DNA from: a virus
Reading direction: 5' to 3' (one strand)
Virus record (IMG/VR): IMGVR_UViG_3300042691_045822
Coordinates: 1 to 32,380 of that record
DNA length: 32,380 nucleotides
Shown: piece by piece, positions 3,402-31,122 of the stretch
Layout of the letters: every line of letters starts with the position of its first letter
Numbering within the stretch: the first letter of the stretch is position 1
Notes under the pieces: generated by a model
What the model was told of the DNA's origin: nothing
The model's input: only the letters and a program-made list of their open reading frames with translations
Database searches by the model: none
Translations under genes and position numbers: made by a program

Positions 3402-3478
3402 TGGCGTTCCGGGTAGGACTCGAACCTACAACCTAAAGATTAGAAGTCTTTTGCGCTATCCGATTGCGCCACCGGAAC
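3402..3478 (-). tRNA. tRNA-Arg (anticodon TCT)
   Basis: A complete 77-base cloverleaf on the minus strand with encoded CCA. The acceptor GTTCCGG pairs with CCGGAAC and the discriminator is G. The anticodon stem AAAGA/TCTTT has loop CTTCTAA, and the T arm is GTAGG-TTCGAGT-CCTAC. It reads AGA, the Arg codon dominating the repetitive fibre gene at 20438-22948. It sits seven bases downstream of the metallophosphoesterase stop and is probably excised from that transcript. Confidence 0.95.
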
Positions 3479-8103: not shown

Positions 8104-8394
8104 TTATTGCTGACCCTCTAGGTCGTCTGGAATGCCATTACCGTTTTTGTCTTCCGAGGAACGTCCAGTTGAAATCATTAAACCAGCGAGCGTTCCAGTG
8201 ATGAAGGTAGCAACGCTTGAAAGCACACCAAAAAACATCTTGTCATTCTCAGCTTGAGCACCAATTGGCTGTGTTACGAAAACGAGAGCGTAGAGGACGC
8301 CAATTGTTGTCAGACACAAAACACCAGCTAGAACGCATCCAACGACGAATTTAAGGCGAGCATCAAGCTCTGCTGGAGTGAGTCTGTTTTTCAT
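8104..8394 (-). CDS. two-span membrane protein, holin-like, with calcium-loop-like tail
   Basis: The 96-aa protein has a short N-terminal polar part, two membrane helices (about 15-40 and 53-75) and a polar C-terminus. The tail contains DKNGNGIPDD (82-91), which resembles a dockerin or EF-hand calcium loop. Size, topology and position in a run that begins with the endolysin suggest a holin or accessory lysis protein. The ATG at 8394 is preferred over upstream starts because it follows GGTGG and overlaps the stop of the lipoprotein gene (ATGA). Confidence 0.6.
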   Translation of the reverse strand: MKNRLTPAELDARLKFVVGCVLAGVLCLTTIGVLYALVFVTQPIGAQAENDKMFFGVLSSVATFITGTLAGLMISTGRSSEDKNGNGIPDDLEGQQ

Positions 8395-8627
8395 GGTGCC
8401 ACCGTCTCCTCGGTCGGAATTATTTCTACTGTTGTTTCTGTTGGGTCCCATCCAAGTAAGGTTTCTGTGCAATTCCCATCTACTTCGCATACTGGTGGCT
8501 CACATTCCTTTGTTCCCCAGTTCGCAGGGTCTTGGCATGAATAGCGATACTTTCCATCATAACCGCAGGCTGAAACCGCAATCAAAATGATTGGAAGCAG
8601 TTTGATTAATCGTGTTGACTTGTGCAT
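8391..8627 (-). CDS. small lipoprotein with Cys-rich domain, 78 aa
   Basis: From ATG 8627 the protein begins with a basic tip and a hydrophobic stretch ending AVSA-C21, a lipobox; C21 would be lipidated and anchor the protein to the outer face of the membrane. The mature part has four more Cys (31, 42, 47, 53) in CQDPANWGTKECEPPVC, enough for two disulfides, and an acidic Thr-rich tail. A TTG start at 8675 would add residues that spoil the signal, so the ATG is preferred. In a lysis run it could be a spanin-like or exclusion protein, but no family is certain. Its start lies inside the Cys-rich ORF. Confidence 0.62.
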   Translation of the reverse strand: MHKSTRLIKLLPIILIAVSACGYDGKYRYSCQDPANWGTKECEPPVCEVDGNCTETLLGWDPTETTVEIIPTEETVAP

Positions 8628-8731
8628 GCACTGGCACCCATCAATTCGGCGCAGGGACAATCGTTTGCGCACCAAGTTTCACAACTGCAATATGCACATT
8701 GGCACTCAGACTTTTCGTGGCTACCTGGCAT
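8606..8731 (-). CDS. Cys-rich metallothionein-like peptide, 41 aa
   Basis: A short ORF fills the otherwise empty 8628-8720 interval. It has eight Cys in 41 residues, at 10, 12, 15, 17, 21, 25, 27 and 36, including C-x-C-x2-C-x-C (residues 10-17: CQCAYCSC) and two His. That motif is the N-terminal signature of bacterial metallothioneins (SmtA/BmtA type), which bind zinc, cadmium or copper through thiolates. The usual second half of those proteins, with YCS and later Cys/His, is not evident, so the protein would be a shortened form. Start ATG 8731 (or 8734) overlaps the end of the upstream membrane gene by about ten bases, with GAGGTG just before. No zinc-ribbon family fits as well. The ORF is below the usual length cutoff. 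Confidence 0.5.
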   Translation of the reverse strand: MPGSHEKSECQCAYCSCETWCANDCPCAELMGASACTSQHD

Positions 8732-8993
8732 CATTCACCTCTGTTTTTGCTGGTGCTTTTTTATCAACCTTGTTGAACACGTCATTTATTTCAGAACTTG
8801 AAAGTTTTCCGTCTTCAAGGAATGCGCGTGAGAGGCCTTCAATTACGACTGCAACCCCTGCAATTCCAGCCATGAAGACAGCTTTGAGTACTGGAACACC
8901 AGCGATAGTTCCTGCACCGATAACTCCCAAGCCGGATGCAGCAAAAGTGGCAAGAATTCGAAGTAGTACATTTACTAATAAATCTTTTTTCAT
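8721..8993 (-). CDS. glycine-rich membrane protein, holin-like, 90 aa
   Basis: The first 52 residues are hydrophobic and Gly/Ala-rich and suit two closely spaced membrane helices (about 6-28 and 33-52). A soluble tail follows with EDGKLSSSEIND (60-71), an EF-hand-like loop, and a Lys-rich end. The layout of paired helices plus a charged tail is seen in phage holins and related membrane proteins. The ATG at 8993 overlaps the stop of the zinc-ribbon gene. With 8104-8394 and 9217-9465, this gives three small membrane proteins downstream of the endolysin, any of which could be the holin. Confidence 0.6.
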   Translation of the reverse strand: MKKDLLVNVLLRILATFAASGLGVIGAGTIAGVPVLKAVFMAGIAGVAVVIEGLSRAFLEDGKLSSSEINDVFNKVDKKAPAKTEVNDAR

Positions 8994-9217
8994 ACCAATG
9001 ACTCACGACGCTTGAAAACTAGAACACATCCTCTTGAGCAATAAAGAGTATTTTTGTATTCACGCAAAATACCTTTCCCGGTTAGACGGTTGCATTCTGG
9101 GCAGCAGTGCTTAACTGACTTGGCGCCTACGTATAGGACGTTGAATCCATCGTCAACCTTTGGTGCGGCTGGGGCCGAGTTCGATACATTTCTTTTTGCT
9201 GGCTTTTTGCTAGACAT
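8990..9217 (-). CDS. small zinc-ribbon protein, 75 aa
   Basis: A basic, disordered N-terminus (1-25) is followed by a compact four-Cys site: C39-x2-C42 in CCPECNRLTG and C60-x3-C64 in YCSRGC, with an extra Cys at 38. The knuckle spacing points to a structural zinc ribbon. The basic tail KRRESLV may touch nucleic acid. The ATG at 9217 overlaps the stop of the previous gene (TAATG) and has GGAG seven bases upstream. The role is unknown; its place among membrane and lysis genes is unusual for a DNA-binding protein. Confidence 0.6.
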   Translation of the reverse strand: MSSKKPAKRNVSNSAPAAPKVDDGFNVLYVGAKSVKHCCPECNRLTGKGILREYKNTLYCSRGCVLVFKRRESLV

Positions 9218-9465
9218 TAGAGGTCTCCAATCGCATGGTCTCGAATATGACCATCAAGTTTCGATTCAACTCGGTCGATTGATTTATTTGTTTTATCGAT
9301 AGAGCGACCTAAGTCTTTGCCAAGTGTTTCTATTTTTTCAACAACATAATTATGGTCGGCTTTATTCTCTTCCCACATCGTTTTGGAGGAGCGTCTATCC
9401 TTTTCGATTAGCGCAACTGCAACCAATCCAATAACACCAACGATTGCCACGATTATTTCAGTCAT
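9217..9465 (-). CDS. membrane-anchored coiled-coil protein (DUF2746-like), lysis candidate
   Basis: An N-terminal membrane helix (residues 3-20, IIVAIVGVIGLVAVALI) precedes a long polar heptad-like region (about 25-75) rich in Lys, Asp and Glu. Single-span proteins of this shape next to the endolysin occur in many actinophages (annotated DUF2746 or holin accessory). The ATG lies two bases after the endolysin stop, so it is the second gene of the run. An N-out topology would put the coiled coil in the cytoplasm or periplasm depending on insertion, which cannot be read from sequence. Confidence 0.6.
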   Translation of the reverse strand: MTEIIVAIVGVIGLVAVALIEKDRRSSKTMWEENKADHNYVVEKIETLGKDLGRSIDKTNKSIDRVESKLDGHIRDHAIGDL

Positions 9466-9467
9466 AA

Positions 9468-10232
9468 CTAATTCAGTCCGAGTAGTTCTTTTACTTTTGG
9501 ACCAGGTACGGAATCGGCTGGAAGTTTATTTGCAACTTTGAAGGCTTTTATTGCCTCATCTGTAGCCGCATCTTTTTGACCATTTATTTCACCCTTATAG
9601 AAACCTTTAGTCTTAAGTGCTTCTTGCAATTTGCTAATTTCGTTCCCGCCCGCTGCTGGTGCTGCGGCGCCTCCAGCTGGAGCTGTTACGCCATTCGCAT
9701 CCATCCATGTTTTGACAGATGCAGGGATATTGTCACCGTTTACATAGCGGAGGTGCCATGGTTCGCTAGGAACGACTTCCCATGAGAAACCAAACTCTTT
9801 TACATTCGCAATAAGCCAGTTAATTCTTTTTGGTTCTGATGCATTGGCAACATCAACGGCCAAGCCGAGGTTATGCTGCGACTTACCAGGTGTGGCAAGC
9901 ATCGCCATACCCTTCTTGAGATACCAGGTTTTTCCCTCAAATGTTTTTGTGCTGGTACCGGCCACTGGCTCAAGCTGGTAGCGGGTCAAAAATCCTTTTT
10001 TCTGGCTCTCATAATCGCGATATGTGTCGCCGCTGGAAGTTGGTTTTAGCTCAACCCCTTCGGACTTTGCCTTTTCAACCATTGCGGTCCACGCAGATGC
10101 GGCAATCCAATGCATTTTGCCGCCACCAGGAACTGCTTTAAGAAGGTTGGCAGGGAGTTTTCCTGGCTCTACTCCTTTAAGGTCTTTTGGTAGAACTACG
10201 GGGACGATATAGTCCCATGCAAGCTTGCTCAT
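9468..10232 (-). CDS. endolysin: VanY-type D-Ala-D-Ala peptidase plus peptidoglycan-binding domain
   Basis: This 254-aa lysin cleaves peptidoglycan cross-links. The N-terminal domain (about 25-175) is VanY/peptidase M15: S118-x-H120-x6-D127 (SQHNLGLAVD) gives two zinc ligands, and E157 with H160 in EPWHLRY gives the catalytic base and third ligand. An Ala/Gly/Pro-rich linker (182-197) leads to a peptidoglycan-binding domain (198-254; ISKLQEALKTKGFY, AIKAFK). No signal peptide is seen, so it needs a holin for export. It is the first gene of a coupled lysis run. Upstream, 10233-10297 holds a CTAGTA/TACTAG inverted repeat (10252-10257, 10270-10275) and AT-rich promoter-like sequence. Confidence 0.9.
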   Translation of the reverse strand: MSKLAWDYIVPVVLPKDLKGVEPGKLPANLLKAVPGGGKMHWIAASAWTAMVEKAKSEGVELKPTSSGDTYRDYESQKKGFLTRYQLEPVAGTSTKTFEGKTWYLKKGMAMLATPGKSQHNLGLAVDVANASEPKRINWLIANVKEFGFSWEVVPSEPWHLRYVNGDNIPASVKTWMDANGVTAPAGGAAAPAAGGNEISKLQEALKTKGFYKGEINGQKDAATDEAIKAFKVANKLPADSVPGPKVKELLGLN

Positions 10233-14943: not shown

Positions 14944-15843
14944 ATGGCAATGTTAAGTAATGATTATATTTCTGAAGCGCAAGAAACAATTCTGCCATTC
15001 TCTATTTATGACATTAAGTTGGCATCGGCAGATAAAAAGCAAAACGACATACTGTCGTCACGCAAAGGTAAGGTCACTCTCTTGTTTAATGTTGCGGCTG
15101 GTTGTGGGAACATCCCCCAGCACTCTGTACTCGAAGAGCTGAACCAAAAATACAAAAATGTAGATGATTTCAATATTCTTGCCGTTGTGGTCGATGACTT
15201 TACGTGTCACGGTTACCCAGAGTTCCAGAATGGTCTGAAGGCCTACATCGAAGAGCACGACCTTCATATGGAACCAGGTGAATTGGCCAAACAATACGCT
15301 GAACAGAATTTTGGCACAACATATGAATTCTCAGAATTAACCAATGGGAGATTTGACAAGCATACATACGACAATACGTTTGTCCCAGGAAAAGTAAAAC
15401 TGCAAGAGCAACATCCGCTTTGGTGGTATCTAACTGGTGGACACGAAGCAGATTTACAGGAAAACGGAGTTCCATACCACGCAGAAGAGATACCATGGTC
15501 CGATGAGCCACCGGTCGATACGACTGGAAAAAAAGTTGTTATCCCATTGTCCGGTAACTTTCAAAAATTTTTAATCAACAAAGATGGAACCAGAATAAAA
15601 AGATATGCAAATGGCTTCCTACTTGGTGAAAGAAATGTTTTTGGAGAGACATTCCCATGGGTGGCAGAAAAATACAAAGATGACGGCAGAAGAGACCACG
15701 AGCCAAAAACAACCCCGACAGAAGACCAAATAGGGAAAATGGAGCAAAGTTCAGCGCCCTGGCCCAACGCGTGGCAAAGAAAGGGTATTGATATTTCGCT
15801 AGAAATAATCAGCAAAGATATTGATGCTTATTTAGCTGAATAA
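14944..15843 (+). CDS. glutathione-peroxidase-like thioredoxin-fold protein with altered active site
   Basis: This 299-aa protein matches the GPx family in two segments. KVTLLFNVAAGCGN (43-56) carries the peroxidatic Cys54. SGNFQKFLINKDGTRIKRY (203-221) equals the family block WNFxKFLxxxxGxxxxRY. The Trp of the catalytic tetrad is Gly204, and the expected FPCNQFG strand is replaced by VVDDFTCHGYPEF, whose Cys88 might be the resolving Cys. A long insertion (about 105-195) exceeds the normal 160-180-aa size. It would reduce peroxides with thioredoxin, or act as a redox chaperone. Leaderless start at ATG 14944. Its stop directly abuts the convergent methyltransferase stop. Confidence 0.68.
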   Translation: MAMLSNDYISEAQETILPFSIYDIKLASADKKQNDILSSRKGKVTLLFNVAAGCGNIPQHSVLEELNQKYKNVDDFNILAVVVDDFTCHGYPEFQNGLKAYIEEHDLHMEPGELAKQYAEQNFGTTYEFSELTNGRFDKHTYDNTFVPGKVKLQEQHPLWWYLTGGHEADLQENGVPYHAEEIPWSDEPPVDTTGKKVVIPLSGNFQKFLINKDGTRIKRYANGFLLGERNVFGETFPWVAEKYKDDGRRDHEPKTTPTEDQIGKMEQSSAPWPNAWQRKGIDISLEIISKDIDAYLAE

Positions 15844-20437: not shown

Positions 20438-22948
20438 ATGTCGAGTCCGCATGTTTTTGGGTTCTCTGAGCCATTCAGGGGCTCTAGTCCTTTCTATCTT
20501 GGATACAGTTATGTAACAAGAAGCGCGACTGGAGACGCAAATGGCTCCTCGTCTGCATCGACGCTGCACACAGTAATACGCAGCGCTTCGGCAAATGGCA
20601 CATCAGGCTCTACTGCTGCTCGCGTACGCACGGTTCTGCGAAGTGCTTCTGCTTCTGGACTTGGTTCTTCGGTTAACTCGACGCTGCACAACAACATACG
20701 AACTGGCCAGGGCAGTGGTTCTGCAACAGCGGGAGACAACGCAACTGGTCTGCATACTGCGCCACGCTCGGCGAGCTCGTCTGCCTCTGGTTCTGCTTCA
20801 TCGACCCAGCTCAGGACACTTCATCACACGGCAACTGGAAGTGCATCTGGAAGTTCAAGTGCACAAGTTCTACATACCTCACCGAGAACGGCAAGTGCGT
20901 TCGGCCAATCAACAGAGTCTGCTTATCGACTTATCATTTCACCAAGAAGCGTCACTGGCTCCGGAAACGGAACAGAACTTGTTAGCGCCCTACATACAGC
21001 TCCAAGAACCGCAAATGCTTCAGGTTTAGGAACGGAATCAGATTCTTCTCTACATACACATATTAGAAGCGCATCAAGTCAGGCTTCTGGAAATTCAGCC
21101 ACCTCAACACTCCATAACAATATTCGAACCGCTCAGGGCGAGGGCTCATCGACTACTGGCGATAGCGCAACTGGCCTGCACACCGCGCCAAGAACTGCAA
21201 GCGCTTCTGGTGACGGCTCAACAACATCAAACGGTCTGCACGTATCGCCACGTTCTGGTTCAGCCAATGGAACTGGTTCGGAAAACGCACTTGGACTACA
21301 CACATCCCCAAGAACGGCAAATGCTTCAGGTTCTGGAACAGATACCGCAAATGGATTGCATACAGCTCCGAGAACAGCCAACGCTTCGGCCAATGGTTCG
21401 GAATTGGCGACAGGACTGCACACTGCACCGAGAACCGCAAGTGCTTCGGGTTCTGGTTCTGAATCAGCAGACGGGCTACATACACACATCAGGTCAGCAA
21501 GTGCGAGTGGGACTGGAGAATCTGGGAACACAACGCTTCTTAACAATGTCAGAAGCGCTACTGGCTCTGGTGGTGCAACAGCTGGAGATAGTGCTCTTGG
21601 ACTCCACACCTCACCAAGAACAGCAACAGCAAGTGGTTCGGGAGCACAATCAAATACACAGTTGCGCTCTGTATTCGAATCAGCTTCAGCTGCCGGAAAC
21701 GGTAGTGATTTGGCAAATGGTCTGCATGTATCGCCAAGAACCGGAACGGCTTCAGGGAGCGCGACAGAAACAACTTCCGAACTGCGAACAACGTTCGTTT
21801 CTGCTTCAGAAACAGCTAATGGCACGTCTTCAACAAACTACCTACACACGGGAATCAGAAGCGCTAACGGTTCGGCAGACGGACAGTCTTCGACGAACGG
21901 ACTTATCACTAGATTCAGAAGCGCATCAGCATCGGGTAATTCATCCAGCTCGATGTCATTCAAGTATGGAAAGTTGCGAACCGCAAATGCAACCGGTGGA
22001 GCCACAGCAGGAGACTCTGCAACCGGTCTACACACTGCTCCGAGGGCTGCATCTGCATCGGCGTCGTCATCGGATTTTGCACAGGTCGGATTTGCACGAA
22101 CAGCAATAGTTTCCGGTGGGGCTACCGCTGGAGATTTTGCACAGGTTGGATTTATCAAGACTGCTTCAGCTAGCGCAACAGGAACATCATTTGCGCAAGT
22201 TGGTCTTGCAGAAAACGCAACAGCCTCGGGCGGTGCAACAACTGGAGATTTTGCACAAGTTGGTTTCATTAAAACAGCATCAACAAGTGGAACTGGTTCA
22301 GAGTTTGCTCAAGTTGGATTCCCGCGAATGGGAAATGTTACGGGAAGTGGAACATCATTCGCACAAGTTGGATTTGCGCGAACAGCAACAGCATCCGGTC
22401 TCGGCACTTCTTCTGCACAAGTTGGTTTGGCAGAAAATGCATTTGCAATCGGTGGTGCCACAACAGGGGATTTCGCCCAAGTTGGATTTATCAAAACGGC
22501 TACTGGTGCAGGAACATCAAGCGAGTTTGCGCAAGTCGGACTTGCGGAAACAGCAACGGCAATCGGCGGCTCCACGACTGGCGATTTTGCTCAAGTCGGA
22601 TTCCCAAGAACAGCATCAGCAACGTGTATTTCTGGAGATTTCGCGCAAGTCGCAATCGGCAATACGGCATTCGCAACTGGCGGAGCGACAACAGGAGACG
22701 AAGCACTTGGGTTGCATACAGCACCGAGAACTGCATCAGGTACTGCGACATCGGGCGAAGTTGCTCAAGTCGGACTTGCAGAAACAGCAACAGCTGTGGG
22801 CGGTGCGACAACCGGAGACTTCGCTCAAGTTGGATTCCCAAGAACAGCTCTAGCGGCTGGATTTGGAAGCCAAAATGCAACATGGGCAAATGAGCCACAA
22901 AGTGGAACAAACGCTGGATACTGGGGAATTCTAGCCGTAATCGAATAA
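20438..22948 (+). CDS. long repetitive Ser/Ala/Thr-rich tail fibre
   Basis: This 836-aa protein has a unique N-terminal about 27 residues (with PFRGSSPFYLGYSYV), then roughly forty degenerate repeats of 18-20 aa. The first zone (about residues 28-545) has the unit LHTAPRTASASGxGTxSANG. The second zone (about 546-805) has FAQVGFxKTASASGxGTxD, in about fourteen copies, with one LHTAPRT unit still inside. A short C-terminus (NEPQSGTNAGYWGILAVIE) ends in an aromatic strand that could bind the next protein or a glycan. Each repeat seems to give one or two beta strands, so a long beta-solenoid or trimeric fibre is likely. AGA and ACA codons dominate Arg and Thr. No enzymatic motif is seen. Confidence 0.75.
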   Translation: MSSPHVFGFSEPFRGSSPFYLGYSYVTRSATGDANGSSSASTLHTVIRSASANGTSGSTAARVRTVLRSASASGLGSSVNSTLHNNIRTGQGSGSATAGDNATGLHTAPRSASSSASGSASSTQLRTLHHTATGSASGSSSAQVLHTSPRTASAFGQSTESAYRLIISPRSVTGSGNGTELVSALHTAPRTANASGLGTESDSSLHTHIRSASSQASGNSATSTLHNNIRTAQGEGSSTTGDSATGLHTAPRTASASGDGSTTSNGLHVSPRSGSANGTGSENALGLHTSPRTANASGSGTDTANGLHTAPRTANASANGSELATGLHTAPRTASASGSGSESADGLHTHIRSASASGTGESGNTTLLNNVRSATGSGGATAGDSALGLHTSPRTATASGSGAQSNTQLRSVFESASAAGNGSDLANGLHVSPRTGTASGSATETTSELRTTFVSASETANGTSSTNYLHTGIRSANGSADGQSSTNGLITRFRSASASGNSSSSMSFKYGKLRTANATGGATAGDSATGLHTAPRAASASASSSDFAQVGFARTAIVSGGATAGDFAQVGFIKTASASATGTSFAQVGLAENATASGGATTGDFAQVGFIKTASTSGTGSEFAQVGFPRMGNVTGSGTSFAQVGFARTATASGLGTSSAQVGLAENAFAIGGATTGDFAQVGFIKTATGAGTSSEFAQVGLAETATAIGGSTTGDFAQVGFPRTASATCISGDFAQVAIGNTAFATGGATTGDEALGLHTAPRTASGTATSGEVAQVGLAETATAVGGATTGDFAQVGFPRTALAAGFGSQNATWANEPQSGTNAGYWGILAVIE
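20520..22850 (+). repeat. tandem 54-60-bp coding repeats, two zones
   Basis: About forty repeats of 18-20 codons run without a break. Zone 1 (20520-22072) is built on LHTAPRTASASG and variants (LHTHIRSAS, LHVSPRTG, LHNNIRTAQ). Zone 2 (22073-22850) is built on FAQVGF/LxxTASASG. The units are degenerate at DNA level, with no long identical runs, so they are old but still phased. Confidence 0.85.
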
Positions 22949-27562: not shown

Positions 27563-27745
27563 ATGCCAATAGTTTTCCCTCCTTCTCCGTCAACAAATGA
27601 CGAGTTTTTCATTGCTGGAAAATCATGGAAATGGAATGGGTTTCAATGGCAGAGATTTAAATCTGCGATAATTGACGGTGGGTTTGCCAACATCGAAATA
27701 GATGCTGGCAATGATACGTCTATCAGCGACGGAGGCAGTGCTTAA
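27563..27745 (+). CDS. small fibre-associated protein, 60 aa
   Basis: The sequence PPSPSTNDEFFIAGKSWKWNGFQWQRF has the tryptophan-rich pattern of short CBM5/12-like or phage fibre linker domains (typically PTNGQxFxxxGxxWxWNGxxW). The second half is Asp/Gly-rich. It could be a connector or a carbohydrate-binding cap. Its stop overlaps the ATG of fibre B (TAATG), so it is translated with it. Confidence 0.6.
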   Translation: MPIVFPPSPSTNDEFFIAGKSWKWNGFQWQRFKSAIIDGGFANIEIDAGNDTSISDGGSA

Positions 27746-30700
27746 TGGCTTACAAAAAGATACTTTTTCGCCGTGATACGTCGTCGAATTGGTCAACAAC
27801 TAACCCCGTATTGTCCGCCGGAGAAATCGGTCTAGAGACAAACACCAATAAAATAAAGCTTGGTAACGGAGCCACAAGCTGGAATTCTTTGCCGTATTTC
27901 TACGGTTATATTGGAGCGGCGTCAATAAATGATTTGAACGACGTAACGATTACTGACGCGCAGAGCGGTGACGTTCTTCGATGGAATGGCTCTGCCTGGG
28001 TGAATGACCCAATCAACCTGGCCACCGACACCATTGGTGCATTCGTGCAGAACCTCGTCGAGGGCACTGGTGTAACAATTACAAACAATACGGGTGAAAA
28101 CGCCACACCGACCATTGCAATCGGACAGGCTGTAGCGACATCATCTTCGGTGACATTTGCCAGACTCGAAACTTCCGGAAATGTTGTTGTTGGCGGCGAC
28201 CTCACAGTAAATGGAACAACGACAACTCTAAATACGGAAACATTGTCGGTAGAGGACAACATTGTCGTTCTCAACTCTGGAGCAACTGGAGCCCCAACAC
28301 TCGATGCCGGCATTGAAGTCGAGAGAGGTTCAAGCACGAACGTAGCGCTGAAGTGGAACGAAAGCGCTGATAGGTGGGAACTTACAAACAACGGAAGCTC
28401 CTATAGCCCAATCATTACATCGTCTCTGCTAGAAGAACGCTTATGGGACGACCACTCGCACCCAGCTGTAAGAGTTGCACAAACAACGGCATTTTCTGCG
28501 TCGATAATTTATGTTGCTGGGACAGCAGACCTAGACGGTGGATACGGTATAGGCGCATATATTGAAAAGGCAACCAATGGAACTCTCCAAATAGATGGAG
28601 TAAACGTTGTTGAGGGAGATAGAATTCTCGTCTCAAACCAAACTGATGCAAAAATAAATGGTATTTATAACGTTACATCGCCTGGTTCCGCATCAACAAA
28701 ATGGAAACTAACGCGCTCTAGCGACTTCAACAGCTCATTGCAGTACTCAATAACTCCAGGCGAATATGTAACCGCTTACGAAGGAACAGATAACGGCGCA
28801 CGTTCCTACATTGTGGTATCTACCGGAACTGGAACAAATGGCGTCCATGTAATTGGAACAGATGATATTACGTTCTCTGAAATGAGTGGAACCGCAACAC
28901 TTATTGCTGGAACTGGCATCAAGTTTGGCGGTAACGAAATATCTTCAGACCTACTTGCTGGAGCTGGTCTGGCACTAACGGACAATGTTTTCAGCATGGA
29001 GACAATTAGCTCAAGCGTTGTGGTGAGCGCATCAACTGCAAGAACATTTGTCAAAGACATTACCGTTGATTCATATGGCCGAGTAGCAGATTTTGAAACA
29101 GCAGAGATAGCCATAATAAATTTGGGTACCGATACATCCGGCAACTATATGTCAGATGTAACGCAGGGCACTGGCGTCACAATCACACACACCCCGGGCG
29201 AAGGCTCAAATGCGACAATTGCAATTGGGCAGGATGTTGGAATATCCGCATCTGTTCAATTTGAAGCAGTGCAGGCAACCAGCATTACTGCACAATCGGT
29301 ATCTGCTCCAACGTTTACTGGAAACGTAGTAGGCGGTGTTACTGGAAATGTTGATGGAAACGTAACCGGCAACGTTACAGGAAATCTATTTGGCAATGTA
29401 ACTGGCGATGTTCTTGGAAACGTTACAGGACTACACATTGGCAACGTGACGGGGAACGTCCAGGGGAACCTTACTGGAAATGTTAGCGGAAGCGTAAGCG
29501 GTAACGTCGTTGGAAACCTGACGGGCAATGTAACTGGTGACGTAACTGGAAATACAACAGGTACACATTTTGGAAACGTAACAGGAAATCTCATTGGAAA
29601 CGTTACTGGTTCTGTTGATGGAAGCATTTCTGGCAACGCTGCAACAGTATCGTCAATTTCCAACCATGCTCTTGATTCTCTGTCTGACGTAACCGCATCT
29701 TCTCCAACATCTGGTCAGTATCTGAAGTGGAACGGAAGTGCCTGGGTACCAGACATCATCGACCTATCCGCAGATACAAGCGGAAACTTCGTCTCTTCAA
29801 TCAACGCCGGAACAGGTGTGTCGCTGACGAACGGCGTTGCACAGGAGGCAGGAAACCCAACAATTAGTATTGGCCAGGCCATCGGTGCGACGGATTCTCC
29901 GTCATTTGCAAACATGTACCTAGGCAATGCACAGGTAGATGCCCAACAAATTACGTACAACTCGGGAACTGGATTGGCCACTGTTACGGCAGTAAACCAC
30001 GGCCTGACCGTAGGTGCGCGGATAACGGTTACTGGAGCAACGCAATCTGGATATAACGGAACATACTCAATTACGTCAGTACCAGTTTCATCAACATTCA
30101 CATATCAGCCAGCAGTCGGCCCATCAGCGAATATTGCATCTGGTCCATTCCTTGTTTATGTTGCTGGCGCTCTCACGTTTGAGGGCTCAACTGGCGATTC
30201 ATTTGAGACAACGATTGTTGCGGTAGACCCAACTGAAGACAGAATTATTAGTCTGCCAGACGCGACCACACAACTTGTTGGACGCGACACAACAGACACG
30301 TTGACAAACAAGACATTGACTAGTCCAACAATCACTGGTGTTTCACCAGTAATTACCCTCGGTGGAGACCTGAGTGGTTCTGTAACACTGACCGACCTTG
30401 GTAATGGTACCCTGACTGCCGCAATACAGCCAAACTCAGTTGCGCTTGGAACTGATACCACGGGTAGCTATGTTGCCAATCTCGTGCAAGGCACTGGCGT
30501 AACAATCACGAACAACTCCGGAGAAGGTGCAACACCAACAATTGCTATCGCTCAAGATGTTGCAACAAGTGCTTCTGTTACTTTCGATACGATTACAGTC
30601 ACAAACCTCTTTGCAACAAACAGCCAGTCAAGCAACGCATCAGAACTGAATGTTTCTGACAGCAAAATCGTCCTTAACGCTGGAACAACAGGTGCGCCAA

Positions 30701-31122
30701 CAGTAGACGGTGCGATAATCATTGATAGAGGCTCAAGTGCAAGCGTTGAAATCCGCTGGAACGAGACCCTTGATAGATGGGAAGCCACGGCCGACGGAAC
30801 AAACTATACACAAATAGCCGCTGGCGCAAAAATGACCATAGGCGACACGCCTCCACCATCTCCAGCAAATGGGGACTTCTGGTTCGAGTCTGACTCAGCG
30901 ATTACCTTTGTTTACTATGACTCGTACTGGATTGAAATCGGTGCATCTGGCATTGGTGCGGTAACAACAGCATCCGCGCCGTCAAATGCGGCAAATGGTC
31001 AGATTTGGTTCAAGAGTACAACCAATGAAATGTTTGTCTATTATGACGGTGTTTGGGTATTGGTAAATAGCACAACTAGCACTAGCGATATTGAAGTTGC
31101 GTCTATTATGGGAGTGTATTAA
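27745..31122 (+). CDS. modular tail-fibre protein B, 1125 aa, Mtd-like N-terminus
   Basis: Residues 1-50 (FRRDTSSNWSTTNPVLSAGE, NKIKLGNGATSWNSLPY) match the N-terminal domain of the phage major-tropism-determinant/hyaluronidase family. Four copies of the ~50-aa module shared with fibre A follow, with one VGGDLTVNGTTTTLNTETL block and one diverged relative at about 950-1000 (KIVLNAGTTGAPTVDG). A stretch of 27 tetrapeptides (GNVT type) lies at about residues 526-633. A DTLTNKTLTSPTITG phrase, known from many fibres, precedes the last module. Two short IWFKSTTNEMFVYYDGVW-like repeats end the protein, which suits a glycan-binding tip. GGAGG lies nine bases upstream of the ATG. Confidence 0.8.
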   Translation: MAYKKILFRRDTSSNWSTTNPVLSAGEIGLETNTNKIKLGNGATSWNSLPYFYGYIGAASINDLNDVTITDAQSGDVLRWNGSAWVNDPINLATDTIGAFVQNLVEGTGVTITNNTGENATPTIAIGQAVATSSSVTFARLETSGNVVVGGDLTVNGTTTTLNTETLSVEDNIVVLNSGATGAPTLDAGIEVERGSSTNVALKWNESADRWELTNNGSSYSPIITSSLLEERLWDDHSHPAVRVAQTTAFSASIIYVAGTADLDGGYGIGAYIEKATNGTLQIDGVNVVEGDRILVSNQTDAKINGIYNVTSPGSASTKWKLTRSSDFNSSLQYSITPGEYVTAYEGTDNGARSYIVVSTGTGTNGVHVIGTDDITFSEMSGTATLIAGTGIKFGGNEISSDLLAGAGLALTDNVFSMETISSSVVVSASTARTFVKDITVDSYGRVADFETAEIAIINLGTDTSGNYMSDVTQGTGVTITHTPGEGSNATIAIGQDVGISASVQFEAVQATSITAQSVSAPTFTGNVVGGVTGNVDGNVTGNVTGNLFGNVTGDVLGNVTGLHIGNVTGNVQGNLTGNVSGSVSGNVVGNLTGNVTGDVTGNTTGTHFGNVTGNLIGNVTGSVDGSISGNAATVSSISNHALDSLSDVTASSPTSGQYLKWNGSAWVPDIIDLSADTSGNFVSSINAGTGVSLTNGVAQEAGNPTISIGQAIGATDSPSFANMYLGNAQVDAQQITYNSGTGLATVTAVNHGLTVGARITVTGATQSGYNGTYSITSVPVSSTFTYQPAVGPSANIASGPFLVYVAGALTFEGSTGDSFETTIVAVDPTEDRIISLPDATTQLVGRDTTDTLTNKTLTSPTITGVSPVITLGGDLSGSVTLTDLGNGTLTAAIQPNSVALGTDTTGSYVANLVQGTGVTITNNSGEGATPTIAIAQDVATSASVTFDTITVTNLFATNSQSSNASELNVSDSKIVLNAGTTGAPTVDGAIIIDRGSSASVEIRWNETLDRWEATADGTNYTQIAAGAKMTIGDTPPPSPANGDFWFESDSAITFVYYDSYWIEIGASGIGAVTTASAPSNAANGQIWFKSTTNEMFVYYDGVWVLVNSTTSTSDIEVASIMGVY
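29320..29643 (+). repeat. 27 uninterrupted tetrapeptide (12-bp) repeats within fibre B
   Basis: Every fourth residue is Gly from GNVV to GNAA. The consensus is G-N-V-T, with Asp or Ser at position 2 and Leu or Ile at position 3 in some units. GLHI-GNVT and GTHF-GNVT recur about 11 units apart. The strict 12-bp period is kept at DNA level, but codons vary, so units are not identical. Confidence 0.9.

Follow-up and report, generated by a model that had tools for sequence, protein, structure and literature searches.

A conserved accessory gene for a cysteine-rich 41-residue protein in the lysis operon of probable freshwater actinophages

The window analyzed here is the whole 32,380-nucleotide stretch of the IMG/VR virus record IMGVR_UViG_3300042691_045822. 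From an endolysin to a 96-residue membrane protein (TM96), the genes touch or overlap one another, and among them lies a short gene for a cysteine-rich microprotein (Table 1). Its reading frame is 42 codons long from the first ATG (8734-8606) and 41 from the second (8731-8606), and the second is the start common to relatives. The product, MMPGSHEKSECQCAYCSCETWCANDCPCAELMGASACTSQHD, contains eight Cys (19.5%), arranged as CxCxxCxC plus a further CxC. The gene overlaps that of the holin-like protein TM90 by 11 nt and the putative lipoprotein gene by 22 nt. The best PHROG match of TM90 is phrog_26427, labelled nuclease. The initial annotation had described, without giving a strand, an unannotated 41-residue ORF below the usual cut-offs in an actinophage lysis operon, with eight Cys, a C-x-C-x2-C-x-C motif, and GAGGTG ahead of ATG ATG. 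All of this is borne out on the minus strand, and the ORF is conserved in relatives. The zinc-ribbon gene that had been placed next to it is not adjacent, as TM90 sits in between.

Table 1. Features of the lysis operon and of the rest of the window.
Feature	Position	Strand	Remarks
Cys-rich microprotein gene, 41 aa	8606..8731	minus	MPGSHEKSECQCAYCSCETWCANDCPCAELMGASACTSQHD + TAA; in-frame ATG also at 8734
Shine-Dalgarno-like GAGGTG	8736..8741	minus	Precedes ATGATG; AGG core kept in most relatives
TM90, 90-aa holin-like membrane protein	8721..8993	minus	PHROG 443 holin, E=1e-6; anchor for finding relatives
Putative lipoprotein, 78 aa	8391..8627	minus	Lipobox-like ..VSAC-G; start inside the Cys-rich gene
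TM96, 96-aa membrane protein	8104..8394	minus	PHROG 25359 (function unknown); conserved partner of TM90 and the lipoprotein
Zinc-ribbon-like protein, 75 aa	8990..9217	minus	CPEC..YCSRGC; also in phages without the Cys-rich gene
82-aa TM and coiled-coil-type protein	9217..9465	minus	XhlA-like by appearance only
Endolysin	9468..10232	minus	VanY peptidase and peptidoglycan-binding domain
Proteasome subunit family match	106-759	minus	Pfam PF00227, E=2e-7, in a phage
tRNA genes (three)	933-1004, 2204-2276, 3405-3478	minus
Glutathione-peroxidase (GSHPx) domain protein	14944-15843	plus	PF00255; domain also in 7 of 21 related records searched
Long repetitive proteins, probably tail-type	20438-22948, 27745-31122	plus	SASGxG/FAQVGF-type and GNVTGN-type motifs

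Across 200 dinucleotide-shuffled versions of the window, ATG-initiated ORFs of 25-60 residues with at least eight Cys occurred 0.09 times per window and those bearing CxCxxCxC 0.015 times, and no ORF combined the two. In the native window, this gene holds the sole CxCxxCxC among short ATG ORFs. Relatives were sought among IMG/VR viral contigs via TM90, then via the endolysin, and then by peptide alignment. This search found the microprotein encoded in 30 other contigs, always in the slot between TM90 and the lipoprotein gene. The lipoprotein and TM96 genes follow in all 30, and TM90 precedes except in L193, a contig that begins within the gene, and in L175 and L176, neither of which gave an above-threshold match to TM90. 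No copy contains a stop or a frameshift; among the copies a single 3-nt insertion occurs, close to the start. All eight Cys are invariant across every copy, as is His6 apart from Ser in the contig-end copy L193. With that same exception HEKSE is invariant, as are T20, ELMG, and S35, so that conserved non-Cys blocks (HEKSEC and ELMGxSACTS) are present at both ends. The copies form two subgroups, one with W21/ASAC and the other with S21/YSAC; L181 and L182, which have R21, group with the first. The window copy has two aromatic residues (Y15 and W21), while subgroup B copies have no W and some have Y or F. Its conservation across 30 further contigs shows conclusively that the gene is real.

Selection was measured on codons 6-35, which are free of overlap with the neighboring genes. 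Within the subgroups, the dN/dS ratio, a test suggested at the outset, comes to 0.26 and 0.21, and pooling them gives 0.34; it thus indicates purifying selection. The events counted, a lower bound, comprise 23 synonymous and 26 non-synonymous changes, whereas in the absence of selection only 18-28% would be synonymous (p = 3e-6 to 3e-3 for the excess, depending on transition bias). The seven non-overlapping Cys codons have undergone five synonymous changes and no non-synonymous ones, and C37 persists even though the same change alters the lipoprotein codon that overlaps it (H2 to Y). The synonymous excess and the Cys codons free of non-synonymous change therefore establish the product as a selected protein, encoded by a genuine gene of the lysis operon. 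Conservation at the C-terminus partly reflects the overlap with the lipoprotein start, which makes this block hard to read. Synonymous sites are also unusually conserved, and between subgroups they are quiet relative to amino-acid changes; constraint at the nucleotide level may account for part of the low diversity of the gene.

Among 60 distinct TM90+TM96 pairs, the Cys-rich gene is present in 22 and absent from 38, in a set that the search enriched for carriers, so that 22/60 is not a frequency. In most of the 38 non-carriers the lipoprotein gene directly overlaps that of TM90, and non-carrier lysis cassettes appear complete. Because the same set of lysis genes occurs without it in many relatives, this is an accessory gene. 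Relatives lacking the ORF beside intact neighbors had been named in advance as evidence against it. Such phages are indeed many, but the absence is clean and never takes the form of a decayed frame; together with intact, selected copies elsewhere, this identifies an accessory gene and not a non-gene. On the TM90+TM96 tree there are at least nine gains or losses, six of which are forced by well-supported branches. At two-fold codons, 10.6% of comparisons show a difference in the Cys-rich gene versus 31-40% in the flanking genes, and its two-fold divergence is below that of TM90+TM96 in 189 of 190 pairs. In L167 and L174 the gene is 99.2% identical, while TM96 is 75.6% identical. In L181, the gene and the first lipoprotein codons match the family, and the sequence switches right after the Cys-rich gene's stop codon. 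DNA far more alike than its flanks, combined with a patchy tree, points to horizontal exchange, and the transfer of a small cassette between related viruses is the best explanation of the pattern.

The microprotein has no match in Pfam, NCBIfam, PHROGs, or the PDB, and 13 members of the family matched none of the metallothionein profiles in Pfam and NCBIfam at E-values up to 10. No cellular homologue was found in 84,980 prokaryote genomes (species), at a sensitivity limited to two peptide patterns; plasmids gave no match, and named phages gave no homologue, only one chance match (E=9). A scan with a 7-Cys pattern returned mostly simple repeats among the matches listed. The looser pattern EK.EC.C..C.C retrieved the same family again plus unrelated proteins, and the family therefore appears to be confined to these phages within IMG/VR. 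A search of open-access literature, which leaves out most subscription journals, turned up no paper describing phage-encoded metallothioneins. Judged by these searches, the microprotein represents a new family.

The ORF had been proposed to encode a phage metallothionein. Its composition agrees with the general description of these proteins: it is under 10 kDa and Cys-rich, with CxC/CxxC motifs, and its Cys are conserved (8/8 in all copies). Metallothioneins of the SmtA/BmtA/PmtA type (Pfam PF02069) are alike in their small size, Cys-rich composition, CxCxxCxC close to the N-terminus, and additional Cys and His. When compared with these structures (PDB 1jjd, 6gv6, 6gv7, 6grv), however, the phage protein is without the central YCSxACxxxH, and its linker is 3 residues long instead of roughly 15. 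With hhalign, SmtA and Pseudomonas metallothionein sequences (verified against PDB entries) align with a probability of 0.7% over 8 columns, the CxCxxCxC only; a full-domain alignment including the central YCSxAC..H zinc site was not obtained. A profile search of the PDB gave no metallothionein match. The Cys-rich composition and the motif of the proposal thus stand, but no family match accompanies them, and the conserved non-Cys blocks also count against it. On the tests made, the protein is metallothionein-like in composition while falling outside the known metallothionein families. AlphaFold yields no confident fold (pLDDT 46), which is compatible with a metal-dependent fold and is not evidence of one. 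The neighboring zinc-ribbon and lipoprotein genes had been read as a hint of metal handling. Both also occur in phages without the Cys-rich gene and therefore lend no support to a metal-handling module. Nor was a link to metal or redox genes found: the zinc-ribbon gene is uncorrelated, and a GSHPx domain occurs in 6 of 13 records with the Cys-rich gene versus 3 of 9 without.

By inspection, the microprotein has no signal peptide, and no hydrophobic stretch that could be a membrane segment or lipobox, as a membrane component of the lysis cassette (holin, antiholin, or spanin type) would have. Because of the eight invariant CxC-spaced Cys, the near-invariant His, and the lack of a signal peptide, cytoplasmic metal binding is its most likely chemistry, and we consider it probable. 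A model can be proposed in which the microprotein would be made from the lysis mRNA through translational coupling to TM90 and would stay in the cytoplasm. The apo-peptide would be largely unstructured and would fold upon binding two to three Zn(II) ions or several Cu(I) ions, with the eight Cys, His6, and perhaps His41 as ligands. It would then buffer or protect against metal or thiol stress late in infection, by a chemistry resembling that of metallothioneins without membership in any of their known families. A late-expressed metal-thiolate microprotein carried as cargo is our best reading, and the full account (an accessory lysis-operon gene of freshwater actinophages, exchanged horizontally as a cassette, whose product buffers such stress) is about evenly poised between right and wrong. 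What counts against its metallothionein-type part is that no family, structure, or significant profile match connects the protein to any metallothionein.

The conserved blocks keep a second reading in play, in which zinc would hold together a small fold for binding a specific partner, such as TM90, the lipoprotein, or a host protein, and thereby tuning lysis or host takeover. Outside the gene overlaps, 11 of the 23 non-Cys residues (in HEKSE, T20, ELMG, and S35) are invariant, which suggests such a partner. In all contigs the gene keeps its place among the membrane proteins of the lysis operon, and in the phages checked it is single-copy and never found at another site; these features and the long blocks at both ends all agree with this reading. 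However, part of the C-terminal conservation comes from the lipoprotein-start overlap, the complete look of cassettes without the gene means that it is not a required lysis part, and no fold or partner is predicted. We hold this structural role to be possible, on the doubtful side.

It is unlikely that the peptide is incidental and that the DNA or RNA itself matters, serving the lipoprotein gene as a leader or coupling element, or acting as a recombination joint. The scarcity of two-fold differences relative to the flanks would fit, as would the lowest diversity spanning the lipoprotein start and a weak consensus pairing that covers it. Against this, non-synonymous changes are depleted, the Cys are invariant, and no compensatory changes are seen. 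Stable RNA structure is rejected as the cause of the conservation, since stability is no greater than in shuffles (z = +0.93), and so are alternative reading frames, none of which is open in all copies. Finally, a disulfide-rich or exported and modified peptide (bacteriocin-like or a RiPP precursor) released at lysis would match a small Cys-rich product of a lysis operon, but it is very improbable given that inspection finds no signal peptide, that no modification enzyme is recognized in the cassette, and that CxC spacing favors metal over disulfide.

Among named phages, the TM90/TM96 cassette has just one relative, Actinomycetia phage DSL-LC01 (OQ999401), which its authors assigned to Actinomycetia (PMC10611076). 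As in the window, its TM90 gene is followed by one where the lipoprotein gene would be and then by TM96, and it has a related endolysin. Unlike the window, it has no Cys-rich gene, TM90 sharing 1 nt with the gene that follows, and its endolysin lies elsewhere in the genome. WhiB, described as confined to actinobacteria and actinophages (PMC10611076), is found in 17 of 22 related records, the window itself having none, and its presence in relatives indicates probable actinobacterial hosts. The GC content of the window is about 45%, close to the 44.7-44.8% of isolated Ca. Planktophila phages (PMC10202952). From DSL-LC01, WhiB, and GC, we infer a freshwater origin and an actinobacterial host; searching cellular genomes for the host with the endolysin gave domain-level matches only. 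Freshwater WhiB-bearing actinophages with thiol/ROS genes, including glutathione peroxidases, have been described (Kavagutti et al., 2019; PMC6802176), and like them the window encodes a GSHPx-domain protein. The main text of that study (PMC6802176) nowhere uses the words metallothionein, metal, zinc, or copper, and the Cys-rich gene does not track GSHPx.

Other Cys-rich ORFs were encountered in viral contigs. L293 (288-416, plus strand) and L365 (near 5378) have an ORF of 42-43 residues with 11 Cys, MECFCKCKKCKCPCHCEMSCMCECAGCEHDE..., which in L293 is near a phage lysozyme-like gene; the pattern used found it in these two contigs only. L288 (2207-2335, plus strand) has a 42-residue ORF with 10 Cys, NCACKDCTCEDCPCDQGCGEDCTCSC, amid phage structural-type genes. 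L325, L340, and L350 contain Cys-rich ORFs with a recurring CxCxxCxC-like spacing, those of L325 and L340 having 82-84 residues and 19 Cys. It is possible, though less likely than not, that phages trade late-expressed, metallothionein-like microproteins horizontally as cargo, with the actinophage family described here as one instance; those of L288, of L293/L365, and of L325/L340/L350 would then be unrelated, independent inventions.

The gene described here offers a clear example of selection and mobility in a gene of only 41 codons, which lies under the usual annotation cut-offs and is carried by viruses of probably abundant freshwater actinobacteria. If metal binding is true, these phages would be managing zinc or copper during infection.
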